64,000 nucleotides of DNA from Malaciobacter molluscorum LMG 25693 (GTDB lineage: Bacteria > Campylobacterota > Campylobacteria > Campylobacterales > Arcobacteraceae), in contig NZ_CP032098.1 in NCBI RefSeq assembly GCF_003544935.1, positions 434,001 through 498,000 of the forward strand, in the 5' to 3' direction. The position numbers and the translations under genes are program-made. Shown here in pieces: positions 11,411 through 15,950 of the stretch. Each line of letters opens with the position of its first letter. Within the stretch, counting starts at the first letter, position 1. The notes under the pieces were generated by a model. The model saw only the letters and a program-made list of their open reading frames with translations, was not told where the DNA came from and searched no databases.

Positions 11411-12571
11411 ATGCAAGATCTAAAAGTAGTTGATTTAAAAGAGTTTTTAAATTACAAAACTCTTTACTATGATAAGATAGATTTCTCAATAGTTCAAAAC
11501 TCTTGGGAAATCTTAAAAAATCATATAAATTTACCGTATGTTATTCATATAGTAGGAACAAATGGTAAAGGAAGTACTGGAAGATTTCTTTCTACTTATT
11601 TATATAGAAAAAATTACAAAGTTTTACACTATAGTTCTCCTCATATTATTAAATTCAATGAAAGAATATGGCTTAATGGTACTGATGTTTGCGATGAAGA
11701 TTTGCAATTGGCACATAAAAAAATACAATCACTTTTAGATATAAAGCTATTAGAAAAGCTTACTTATTTTGAATATACAACCCTAATTGCTTTATATTTA
11801 AGTAGTGATTTTGATTATATTGTTTTAGAAGCTGGTCTTGGTGGAGAATTTGATGCAACAAATGTTGTAAAAAATGATTTAAGTTTAATTACTACAATAG
11901 ATTTAGATCATCAAGCTTTTTTAGGAAATAGTGTAGAGCAAATTGCCCAAACAAAGATGCGTGCTTGTGATAATCATATGATTGTAGGGTGTCAAATCCA
12001 TGAAGTTGTAGCACAAATGGCATATGAAGTAAAAGAACAACTAAAACAAAAAAGAGAAATATCTATTAAGGTAGTAGATAAGTTTGAAGAATATGATATA
12101 AAAACAAATTATGCTTCTTATTTGAAAAAAAATTTACAGTTAGTTATTGAAGCTTTAAAATATTTAAATATAGACATAGATATTTCTTTGTTTGAAAACA
12201 TTAAATTGAAAGGAAGATGTGAAAAAATTGCATCAAATATAACAATAGATGTAGGTCATAATCCTTTAGCTGCAAGAGTTTTACAAAAAGAGTTTGAAAA
12301 TAAAAAAATAACTCTTATTTATAACTCATATAAAGATAAAGATTATGAAAGTGTTTTAAAAATTTTAAAACCTATAATAAAACAAATAATTATTATAGAT
12401 GTTAAAGATAAAAGAATAGTTGATAAAAATAATTTATTTGAAATTTGTAAAAAATACAATATAATGACTAAATCTAAACTTGAAATCAATGAAAATGAAG
12501 AGTATTTAGTATTTGGTTCTTTTTTAGTTGTAGAAAGTTTTTTAGAGTTTTTAGGTGTTGATGAAAAATAG
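11411..12571 (+). CDS. folC: folylpolyglutamate / dihydrofolate synthase FolC
   Basis: Adds glutamate to dihydropteroate and to folates. It is a 386-residue Mur-ligase-type protein with P-loop VGTNGKGS (48-55), the folate-loop sequence YSSPHIIKFNERI, the conserved LEAGLGGEFDATN, and a C-terminal ligase domain with DVGHNPLA. It is somewhat shorter than the E. coli enzyme (about 420), with the C-terminal domain compact. It ends inside the start of the M23 peptidase gene (11-bp overlap from the preferred ATG). Position after lptE agrees with other Campylobacterota. Confidence 0.93.
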   Translation: MQDLKVVDLKEFLNYKTLYYDKIDFSIVQNSWEILKNHINLPYVIHIVGTNGKGSTGRFLSTYLYRKNYKVLHYSSPHIIKFNERIWLNGTDVCDEDLQLAHKKIQSLLDIKLLEKLTYFEYTTLIALYLSSDFDYIVLEAGLGGEFDATNVVKNDLSLITTIDLDHQAFLGNSVEQIAQTKMRACDNHMIVGCQIHEVVAQMAYEVKEQLKQKREISIKVVDKFEEYDIKTNYASYLKKNLQLVIEALKYLNIDIDISLFENIKLKGRCEKIASNITIDVGHNPLAARVLQKEFENKKITLIYNSYKDKDYESVLKILKPIIKQIIIIDVKDKRIVDKNNLFEICKKYNIMTKSKLEINENEEYLVFGSFLVVESFLEFLGVDEK

Positions 12572-13466
12572 ATTGATAATTACTGTATCAGATGTCAAAG
12601 GAACAAAGTCTTATAATATTCACCAGTTTGTTCGAAAATTTATAGTAATATTTTCGATAATTGCATTATTTGTACTAGGTGGTAGTTTTTGGTTGATTAC
12701 TTATTTAAATGGTGAAGTTTCTCATTTAAAAGAATCAAAAGAGAAAGAGATCTCAATTCTTGAAAAAAAAGAGAAAGAACTTTTATCTCAAAATAGTAAA
12801 TATTCACAACAAATAAAAAATAAAGTTGATGATTTAGAAGAGTTAAGTTCAAAGTTAGATCATCTTGAAGAAATAATTGGTATAAAAAAAGAAGATGAAG
12901 ACTTAAGTCCAATAAAAAGAGCTACTTTAGCTACAATGACGACAGTTCAAAAAGCTTTTATTTTAAAAACAATACCAAATGGAAGTCCTTTAGAAAAAAC
13001 TGTAATTACTTCATCTTATGGTTATAGAGTTCATCCTCTAACAAAAAAGAAGAAGTTTCATAAAGGAATTGACCTAAGAGCAAGAATGCGAACTAAAGTT
13101 TATGCAACAGCAGATGGAATAGTTAGTTATGTTCAATCTCAAGATATTGGTGGTTTTGGTCGTGTTGTAAAAATTATGCATGGGTATGGATTTCAATCTA
13201 TATATGCACATTTAAATAGAACAAAGGTAAAATTAGGTCAAGTAATAAGAAAAGGTGATCTTTTAGGATTAAGTGGAAACAGTGGAAGAAGTGCAGCACC
13301 TCATTTACATTATGAAATTAGATATGGTGTAAAAATTATAAACCCTTATAATTTCTTGTACTGGAATATGAAAAATTATGAAGACATTTTCAAAAAACAA
13401 AGGAGAATTCCGTGGGAATCTTTGGTAAAACTGATAAGCGAACACAACAAAATAGTGCAACAGTAA
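12561..13466 (+). CDS. M23 family peptidoglycan endopeptidase, Csd1/Csd2-like
   Basis: A membrane-anchored peptidoglycan hydrolase. I prefer ATG 12561 to the GTG at 12555 because AGG lies at the right distance; this gives 301 residues. There is one transmembrane helix (27-47), a periplasmic coiled coil (50-108) and a LytM/M23 domain (145-260). The zinc ligands are H167 and D171 in FHKGIDL and the PHLH motif (247-250), with H217 in YAHL, so the enzyme should be active. The bactofilin gene starts inside its 3' end. In Helicobacter, M23 peptidases Csd1 and Csd2 next to the bactofilin CcmA relax peptidoglycan crosslinks to give helical shape; the same pairing is inferred here. Confidence 0.9.
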   Translation: MKNRLIITVSDVKGTKSYNIHQFVRKFIVIFSIIALFVLGGSFWLITYLNGEVSHLKESKEKEISILEKKEKELLSQNSKYSQQIKNKVDDLEELSSKLDHLEEIIGIKKEDEDLSPIKRATLATMTTVQKAFILKTIPNGSPLEKTVITSSYGYRVHPLTKKKKFHKGIDLRARMRTKVYATADGIVSYVQSQDIGGFGRVVKIMHGYGFQSIYAHLNRTKVKLGQVIRKGDLLGLSGNSGRSAAPHLHYEIRYGVKIINPYNFLYWNMKNYEDIFKKQRRIPWESLVKLISEHNKIVQQ

Positions 13467-13849
13467 TAGCAGCGGGAACTTGTATTATTGGTGGTATTAG
13501 TACTCCAGGTACTGTTCATATAGATGGTAAATTTGAAGGTGTTATTTTAGAAGCTGATATAATTACAATTGGTCAAACAGGTGAAGTTATTGGAGATATT
13601 AAAGCGAATAATTTAATAGTAAATGGACTTTTTGATGGTAAAATTGATTGTAATGAAGTTCATGTTTTATCTTCAGGAAAAGTAATTGGTGAAATAAGAT
13701 ACAATGAACTTGTAATTGAAGAAGATGGTAAATTTGAAGGACAAGGTATTAGAAAAAGTTCAAATCTAAAAAGTAGATATTCAGAAATTGAACAAAAAAT
13801 TAATAATATTATTGTTTCTCCAGCACCTTTAAGACATGGCAACAATTAA
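13412..13849 (+). CDS. ccmA: bactofilin, CcmA-like polymer-forming cytoskeletal protein
   Basis: A 145-residue protein with a short polar N-tail, then a beta-helical bactofilin core (about 22-110) of regularly spaced G/I/V turns (GTCIIGGISTPGTVHIDGKF, GDIKANNLIVNGLFDGKI), and a charged C-terminal tail. Bactofilins polymerise without nucleotides and localise peptidoglycan enzymes. The GTG start at 13412 follows AAGGAG and lies 55 bp inside the M23 peptidase gene, an unusually deep overlap that should tie their expression together. The helicase gene begins 14 bp before its end. Confidence 0.93.
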   Translation: MGIFGKTDKRTQQNSATVIAAGTCIIGGISTPGTVHIDGKFEGVILEADIITIGQTGEVIGDIKANNLIVNGLFDGKIDCNEVHVLSSGKVIGEIRYNELVIEEDGKFEGQGIRKSSNLKSRYSEIEQKINNIIVSPAPLRHGNN

Positions 13850-15950
13850 AGAGAAATTAAATTATCTTTACAAACAAAAACATCAAATAGAAGAAGAGAT
13901 AAAAGCTTTAGAAGCTTCTCTTAGTAAACAAACTTCAAAAATAGATTTTTCAAAAGATGAAAAAATTAATATATTCAAATCTTTATTTATAAATAGATTT
14001 GATATTTATGCAAAAAAAAGTATTAGTAAAGATAAATCAAAACAAAACTTTTTTCCAGTTACTCAAACTTTTAGAGGTGAAGATTATTTACCATTAACTA
14101 ATCAAGAAATAGAGTTGCATTTAAGAGGATTAATGCATCTGGCATCTTATGTAATTGATTATAAAAATAGTTGTAAATTTGTAGTAATTGAGATTTTAGA
14201 TGAAGATAAATTCAAACTTCAAATTGCATTAAATTCACTTAATATTAGAGCATATTTTGAACAAAGTTATATTTCTACTTTAAGAGCATGGATCTTTTTT
14301 CAAAATAGTGTTAGTGCAAAAAAAGCCAATATTTTTGCAAATGAAATCATAAAAAAAGCCAATATAAGTGCAAAAATATTTCCAAAAGAACAGTTTGCTA
14401 CAAAAGCAAACCTAGGATCAAAAATACAATTGCCTTTACATTTATCATATAGAAAAGAGAATAAAACAGTTTTTGTTGATATAAATACTTCAAAAATATA
14501 TGAAGATCAATGGAGTATATTAAACAACGTTCAAAAAACAAATATAAATAAAATAGAACAATTATGTAAAAATGAAGATATAAAAGTATTTGATTCTTCT
14601 ACTTTTGAAACTATAAATTTTCCAAGTTTTAAATTGAAATTAATTATATACGATTTTTTATATATTCCAACAAAGGATTTATCTAAAACATTTATTAATA
14701 AATTAAAAAGTTTTGCAAGTTTTGAAAATCCTCAAATAAAAGTTTTATTGAGTCTTAGAAAACCTTTATATAATACTCCAAGAGTAATTAAAAACTTTGA
14801 AGAAGATGAAAAATATTTAAAATTACCAAGAGGACTAATATATCAAACACTAAATTTTTTAGATCAAAATAGTGTTGATTATATATTAGATGATAAAAAG
14901 TTTTTTGAGAAAATTGAGACTAAAAAAGTAAGCTTTACTTTAAGAGAAGAACAAGATGAAGCTATAAAAAATATTTTAAAAACAGATTTTTCTATTTGTG
15001 TTGCACCTCCTGGATTTGGAAAAACATTAATTGGTGCAAAGATGACAGAAATTAGATCTTGTAGTACTTTAATAGTTGTAAATAAAAATATGTTACTTAA
15101 TCAGTGGATACAAAGATTTGTTGATTATTTTGGTTATACAAAAAAAGATATAGGATACTTAGGAAAAGGGAATAATAAATTAACAGGTATTATTGATATA
15201 GCTACAATGCAAAGTTTAAAAAATGATCCTGATATAATAAATAATTACTCTTTTGTTATTGTAGATGAGTGTCATCATATTCCAGCTGTTACTTTCGAAC
15301 AAATTATAAAACAATTTCATGGAAAATATGTTTTAGGTCTTAGTGCAACTCCAAAAAGAAAAGATGGATTAGATCCAATTTTATTTCAACAATTAGGAGA
15401 TATTGCATATGAGTATAAAAAGAAAAAAACTATAACTAATAAATTGAAAATTATTAGAACAGACTTTGAAAGTAATGCTGATAATTATGCAACTTTAATA
15501 AATGAACTTTGTGCTAATCAAGCTAGGAATTTATTAATTTTAAATGAAATAAAAAATAATATAAAAAGAAAGATTTTAGTTTTAAGTGATAGAATAGAAC
15601 ATTTAAATCTTTTAGAAGAGATGCTAAAAAAAGAGGGGATTGATTTTATTTGTATTCATGGAAGTATGAATAAAAAAGAACAAAATGAAAATATGAAACA
15701 AGTTCAAACAAAAAGTTTGATACTTGCTACAACATCATATTTTGGAGAAGGAATTGATTTTCCACATTTAAATACAATACTTTTTGCAACTCCTATTTCT
15801 TATTATGGAAGACTTATTCAATACTTAGGAAGAGTAGGACGAGATGGACAAGAGTGCCTTGCAATTGATTTTTTAGATTCAAGAAATGCGATGTTAAATT
15901 CTGCTTATAAAAAAAGAATGGAAGGTTATAAGCAGATGCATTATAAATAA
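13836..15950 (+). CDS. SF2 helicase fused to a degenerate TOTE-type primase domain
   Basis: A 704-residue protein. Residues 1-35 form a coiled coil. Residues about 45-245 match the archaeo-eukaryotic primase domain of TOTE conflict systems as I remember it: a FxxRFDIYAKK segment, LPLTNQEIELHLRG, then VVIEILDED (117-124), RAWIFFQ (150-156), LGSKIQLPL and VFVDINT...YEDQW. The residues expected for catalysis are missing: the metal-binding DFD is EIL (119-121), and the RSGNGxH segment is SYISTLR (144-150). The C-terminal half is an intact superfamily 2 helicase with Walker A APPGFGKT (390-397), DECH (477-480), GLSATPKR and QYLGRVGRDG. The gene is coupled to bactofilin by a 14-bp overlap. A role in DNA repair or defence is possible; none is demonstrated. 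Confidence 0.85.
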   Translation: MATIKEKLNYLYKQKHQIEEEIKALEASLSKQTSKIDFSKDEKINIFKSLFINRFDIYAKKSISKDKSKQNFFPVTQTFRGEDYLPLTNQEIELHLRGLMHLASYVIDYKNSCKFVVIEILDEDKFKLQIALNSLNIRAYFEQSYISTLRAWIFFQNSVSAKKANIFANEIIKKANISAKIFPKEQFATKANLGSKIQLPLHLSYRKENKTVFVDINTSKIYEDQWSILNNVQKTNINKIEQLCKNEDIKVFDSSTFETINFPSFKLKLIIYDFLYIPTKDLSKTFINKLKSFASFENPQIKVLLSLRKPLYNTPRVIKNFEEDEKYLKLPRGLIYQTLNFLDQNSVDYILDDKKFFEKIETKKVSFTLREEQDEAIKNILKTDFSICVAPPGFGKTLIGAKMTEIRSCSTLIVVNKNMLLNQWIQRFVDYFGYTKKDIGYLGKGNNKLTGIIDIATMQSLKNDPDIINNYSFVIVDECHHIPAVTFEQIIKQFHGKYVLGLSATPKRKDGLDPILFQQLGDIAYEYKKKKTITNKLKIIRTDFESNADNYATLINELCANQARNLLILNEIKNNIKRKILVLSDRIEHLNLLEEMLKKEGIDFICIHGSMNKKEQNENMKQVQTKSLILATTSYFGEGIDFPHLNTILFATPISYYGRLIQYLGRVGRDGQECLAIDFLDSRNAMLNSAYKKRMEGYKQMHYK

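Follow-up and report, generated by a model that had tools for sequence, protein, structure and literature searches.

Bacterial enzymes of the archaeo-eukaryotic primase (AEP) superfamily have mostly been described from mobile elements or as accessories to CRISPR systems and NHEJ, and TOTE conflict systems have a mobile or defense-type genomic context and a patchy distribution. The AEP fold, the fusion of an AEP to a helicase, and mobile relatives of such fusions are already known. We analyzed a window of 64,000 nucleotides from Malaciobacter molluscorum LMG 25693 (NZ_CP032098.1, positions 434,001 to 498,000; the genome is 2.80 Mb in a single contig), which contains a gene related to these systems. 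With the CAPP-helicase type of CAPP_A and its non-CRISPR relatives, which are typically in mobile elements (PMC8211822), the window protein shares the order of Prim-Pol and then helicase, the fold (Z 24.4) and sequence homology. It differs from them in lacking all three catalytic motifs, in being inherited vertically at one chromosomal locus, and in having no CRISPR or mobile context. Fusions of a TOTE-type AEP (PF22548) to an SF2 helicase on plasmids (L242-L244) are colinear with it over the full length, matching in coiled coil, AEP, UvsW-N-like domain and helicase; the plasmid forms retain the motifs and have AbiEii genes adjoining or near, whereas the motifs of the window protein are lost. 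XPB/XPBII, T4 UvsW and RadD have in common with it an SF2 core and an N-terminal DNA-recognition-like domain, but they have no AEP domain, and their identity to its helicase core is about 17-24%. We found no earlier description of a family-wide, chromosomally fixed, catalytically dead AEP-helicase in the open-licence literature.

The second-best fold family is DUF1882/HP0184 (2atz, Z 12.6), a stand-alone protein of the Campylobacterales whose AEP nature was noted previously (PMC8065100). It shares the AEP fold and is a core protein of the order, but it is a single domain of a different family. The C-terminal part of one DUF1882 protein (L083:1393-1935) matches AEP-TOTE at 29.6 bits; its motifs retain one Asp and the His, with the second Asp altered (DYN).

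Domain layout and fold

The gene encodes 704 amino acids arranged as a coiled coil, a Prim-Pol fold, a UvsW/XPB-N-like domain and an SF2 core. Its features and upstream neighbors in the window are as follows.

11411..12571, plus strand: gene of the Mur ligase family by Pfam, which we take to be folC from what is known of the family and from its genomic setting; the upstream anchor that stays constant at the locus
12555..13466, plus strand: M23 peptidase gene (PF01551), gained or lost jointly with the bactofilin gene at the locus
13412..13849, plus strand: bactofilin gene (PF04519, E 1e-23), upstream of the helicase ORF and overlapping it by 14 bp
13836..15950, plus strand: pseudo-AEP/SF2 helicase fusion gene, 704 aa, the feature under study
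13836..13955, plus strand: N-terminal coiled coil, residues 1-40, fast evolving, with a helix at 2-32 in the model
13959..14570, plus strand: pseudo-AEP (Prim-Pol/AEP-TOTE) domain, residues 42-245; PF22548 at 148 bits, AlphaFold pLDDT 92.6, Z 24.4 to CAPP 7nqd
14190..14198, plus strand: motif I (hhhDhD) position, EIL at residues 119-121
14265..14285, plus strand: motif II (S-K/R-S-G-x-G-x-H) position, SYISTLR at residues 144-150
14370..14372, plus strand: motif III Asp position, Ala179 (YDRxFPNQD in relatives)
14628..14870, plus strand: UvsW/XPB N-terminal-like domain, residues 265-345, between the AEP and the helicase
14916..15935, plus strand: SF2 helicase core, residues 361-700, XPB/UvsW/RadD-like, motifs intact

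The original prediction identified the N-terminus as a TOTE-type AEP and proposed a profile search and a structural superposition as checks, and both agree with it. In a Pfam profile search, PF22548 (AEP-TOTE) matches residues 42-242 with E 3e-43 and 148.4 bits, spanning positions 1-229 of the 230 in the profile; the gathering cutoff is 27 bits, and such a match is far beyond chance. CAPP Prim-Pol is the PDB sequence match for the N-terminus (E 9e-10). The structure prediction for the first 345 residues has a mean pLDDT of 92.6, and the predicted AEP domain superposes on CAPP Prim-Pol 7nqd with a Z of 24.4 over 195 aligned residues at 2.3 A, with other AEPs found further down the list of fold matches. 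The protein has the fold of the AEP superfamily as well as PF22548 homology. We rejected the idea that a second primase in the genome makes this one redundant, since the PF22548 search of its own genome finds only the 13836..15950 gene.

The helicase half is intact, as had been proposed. All the SF2 motifs are present (Walker A APPGFGKT at 390-397, DECHH at 477-481, SAT at 503-505 and QYLGRVGR at 662-669), and the Walker A, DEXH box, SAT and motif VI Arg residues are near-invariant over 39 orthologues. Pfam finds ResIII at 85 bits and Helicase_C at 64.5 bits, and the PDB sequence match is XPBII 6p4f (E 4e-23). The full-length model aligns with XPB, UvsW and RadD over residues 265-700, the XPB and UvsW alignments beginning at residue 265, and the fold matches of the helicase part have a Z of 25.9 to XPBII, 22.8 to UvsW and 21.4 to RadD. 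Residues 265-345, taken as a domain model, match the T4 UvsW N-terminus with a Z of 5.6. None of the named equivalog models (XPB, RadD, RecQ) reaches its cutoff for the window protein; XPB scores 70.8 bits against a cutoff of 610 and RadD 52.6 against 720. The full-length model has a pTM of 0.54 and leaves the orientation of the AEP relative to the helicase free.

The catalytic motif positions

By the definitions of PMC10345425, a catalytic AEP has motif I as hhhDhD/E, motif II as sxH and motif III as hD/E, and the window protein has none of the three. Where motif-intact relatives have VIDLD, SKSGNGIH and YDRMFPNQD, it has VIEIL, SYISTLR and AKIFPKEQ, with four residues fewer after motif I and nine fewer just before motif III. 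This bears out the substitutions read originally from the sequence, in which the DFD metal site becomes EIL and the RSGNGxH region becomes SYISTLR. We compared 39 Arcobacteraceae orthologues with 75 relatives that have intact motifs. The Asp residues at 119, 121 and 179 are present in 0/39 of the orthologues versus 75/75 of the motif-intact relatives elsewhere, so the loss of the motif I Asp pair is common to all the orthologues. Relatives at the same locus retaining DxD and His had been named as evidence against the prediction; when these were sought, the His of motif II was found in three of the 39 (the window protein is not among them), and the motif I Asp in none. The two motif II glycines are kept in 0/39 and 1/39. 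Residues of the fold, namely H95, L96, G98, W152, P183, P200, F213 and W226, are present in all 39.

In MpCAPP, replacing the two motif I Asp residues by alanine abolishes both polymerase and primase activity (PMC8211822), and PolpTN2 is inactivated by changing DID to LIL (PMC5862659). With all three motifs gone and Asp-pair mutants dead in both of those enzymes, it is close to certain, judging from the sequence, that priming activity has been lost in the window protein. The cysteines of the zinc part are indeed absent, as was first noticed, but we rejected their absence as a sign of inactivation; it is uninformative because the closest motif-intact relatives, L100-L106 in the Campylobacterota, also lack them.

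Chromosomal descent, neighbors and mobile relatives

In a helicase tree, the Arcobacteraceae sequences fall into a single clade (support 100%), and those of the window's own family intermingle with loci named Arcobacter and Aliarcobacter. Helicase distances track those of leuS (Mantel r 0.88, 0/2000 permutations), and the locus leuS-lptE-folC-(M23-bactofilin)-helicase is common to several genera. The catalytic loss is ancestral to this one vertically inherited clade. The full-length form occurs in 36 of the 61 Arcobacteraceae genomes (one cut at a contig end and one with an internal stop), a form with a shortened AEP (about 650 aa) in 4, and in 11 the AEP is missing or the sequence breaks off at that point, two of these being at contig ends and so ambiguous; the orthologue is absent from the remaining 10. 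The fusion is thus in most Arcobacteraceae, versus PF22548 in about 4-9% of the genomes sampled in two other phyla. No defense neighborhood was found at the chromosomal Arcobacteraceae locus, and the fixed leuS-lptE-folC position and leuS-congruent descent are unlike the mobile or defense context and patchy spread of a TOTE conflict system. The locus, the leuS congruence and the homologues on plasmids substantiate the claim of chromosomal fixation while motif-intact relatives are mobile.

The gene had also been described as coupled to bactofilin. The 14-bp overlap is real, but the coupling was rejected, as the locus dissociates in both directions among the Arcobacteraceae genomes. M23 and bactofilin are gone from the locus with the helicase kept in the six genomes of genus g11 and in G046, G004, G021 and G016. 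The g11 genomes have bactofilin elsewhere; none was found anywhere in the genomes of G046, G004 and G021, and the search of G016 gives just weak hits on another contig. At least five lineages have the helicase with no bactofilin beside it, and bactofilin is present without a helicase orthologue in G007, G009 and G003. An overlap of this size is not peculiar to bactofilin, because at L053 it is folC that the helicase start overlaps, again by 14 bp. The adjacency is inherited gene order and is no evidence of partnership. No papers on bactofilin in Arcobacter were found in the open-licence literature. Of the domestication reading as first put forward, the TOTE homology, dead site, intact helicase and chromosomal fixation stand, and the bactofilin coupling falls.

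Homologues of 732 aa (L242-L244), with 42-43% identity to the window protein, are present on plasmids of Aliarcobacter cryaerophilus, A. cibarius and Arcobacter cloacae. They keep DLD, SKSGNGIH and the motif III Asp in YDRM(F/L)PNQD. Dead chromosomal and motif-intact plasmid versions therefore coexist in the Arcobacteraceae at the level of the family. Two of the three plasmids have an AbiEii gene immediately upstream of the homologue, and the third has one a few genes off. A motif-intact AEP-helicase directly follows an AbiEii-type gene and a small partner at L242:5092-8184 and L243:4092-7184, which are Arcobacteraceae plasmids, and at L101:5812-8905 in a third genome. L242 and L101 share 85% identity in their AbiEii proteins, which suggests that AbiEii, the small partner and the AEP-helicase may be a traveling three-gene cassette.

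Elsewhere in the same order, one sample has two genomes with the full-length fusion and another sample has one more, all motif-intact. Among further genomes, PF22548 is in 15/397 of the phylum of L114 (Pseudomonas) and 33/397 of the phylum of L145 (Oceanobacillus). No dead TOTE-AEP fusion was found in these 397 + 397 genomes, the motifs being intact at all loci with a readable domain; the divergent Bacillota loci L229, L230 and L231 and some fragments were set aside. Since the set of 80 relative loci was ordered by how closely they resemble a motif-intact sequence, and some loci went unread, dead fusions may still exist outside the Arcobacteraceae. The PF22548 match of L229 (G872) lies beside or within a long reverse transcriptase-like frame, reminiscent of the CAPP-RT type. 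Phage records match the helicase part only.

Function and fate of the pseudo-primase

We favor, with reasonable though not strong confidence, a reading in which the window protein is a domesticated, catalytically dead chromosomal descendant of mobile Prim-Pol (AEP-TOTE) and SF2 helicase fusions, with a pseudo-primase that is likely a non-priming module. Synteny and the tree show that one copy of the fusion settled beside folC in an ancestor of the Arcobacteraceae. Its active site was then dismantled: the two Asp of motif I, the motif II loop (SGxGxH) and the Asp of motif III were lost along with the loop segments bearing them. The Prim-Pol fold has been held by purifying selection in most lineages, as the substitution rates below indicate. 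The protein would most likely be an ATP-driven XPB/UvsW-like DNA translocase serving general genome maintenance, and the pseudo-primase may hold or position single-stranded DNA, forked DNA or even the helicase, without priming. It is probably a DNA-binding module. Since DNA binding by Prim-Pol is described as metal-independent and occurring via the N-terminal region (PMC10345425), it could persist after the metal site is gone. In the dead clade the AEP region has a mean net charge of +5.0, versus +1.7 in intact relatives, which agrees weakly with DNA binding.

A more specific version, which we offer tentatively, makes the dead Prim-Pol a core DNA-holding subdomain of a family-wide XPB/UvsW-like maintenance helicase, selected for a non-priming function and possibly replacing the role of DUF1882/HP0184. 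DUF1882 is present in 112 of 150 genomes of the order, all from outside the Arcobacteraceae; a search of 61 Arcobacteraceae genomes gave 0. We draw no function from this complementarity because it is a single clade-level event.

The AEP domain evolves under relaxed constraint, weaker than that on the helicase, yet it is under real purifying selection: over 13 close pairs, dN/dS is 0.06-0.21 for the AEP versus 0.04-0.13 for the helicase. The helicase forms the indispensable core, and the pseudo-primase is accessory to it, because some lineages have cleanly removed the AEP, retaining coiled coil and helicase. It is deleted in g7 and part of g12, where forms of 475-477 aa keep those two parts (the coiled coil is kept even in orthologues without the AEP domain), and it is independently cut back in genus g2 to proteins of about 650 aa (L044-L047). 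A second, more divergent AEP-less helicase copy with 48% identity exists in genus g7 (L039, G006:C6:104836-105969) besides L038. In L020 (G019), a single in-frame TAG lies within the pseudo-AEP, and the helicase frame is open.

The relaxed constraint, the AEP deletions and the G019 nonsense codon fit almost as well with the AEP domain being a decaying passenger on its way out, which in most lineages does nothing but fold, so that only the helicase is used. The ratio of AEP to helicase divergence has likewise doubled, at 1.80 in the dead clade versus 0.93 in intact relatives. We nevertheless consider this somewhat unlikely, since dN/dS stays low in 13/13 close pairs, the fold residues are near-invariant family-wide and a complete fold is confidently predicted long after the family ancestor; an unused 200-aa domain would be expected to vanish more often or to evolve near neutrality.

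It is improbable that a chromosomal anti-plasmid or anti-phage conflict function has been kept, for instance by interfering with the intact homologues on plasmids of the same family. The ancestry in mobile fusions and the intact plasmid homologues would suit such a function, and PADLOC gives PrimPol matches that reflect homology only, but vertical inheritance at a fixed housekeeping locus with no defense neighborhood is unlike typical defense genes. It is very improbable that the domain is still a nucleotidyl transferase, or an enzyme that binds nucleotides, whose active site has been rebuilt. The E or K/Q at 119, clade-specific conserved residues such as R97, E93 and K180, and the His at the motif II position in three sequences might hint at this, but positions 121 and 179 have no conserved acidic residue, the loops of motifs II and III have become shorter, and the residues that replace the catalytic ones differ among orthologues, unlike a new catalytic site. 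A functional partnership with bactofilin/M23 in cell-shape control is just as hard to credit, for despite adjacency in most of the Arcobacteraceae the dissociations at the locus, together with the L053 overlap, strongly suggest that the helicase does not act with bactofilin.

On the domestication reading, a mobile primase-helicase was probably captured by the chromosome, lost its priming chemistry in the ancestor of the family, and was retained under selection. The Arcobacteraceae would then offer a natural experiment on how a primase fold serves a helicase once priming is impossible, with motif-intact, dead, shrunken and deleted states of the AEP available as comparators within one family.
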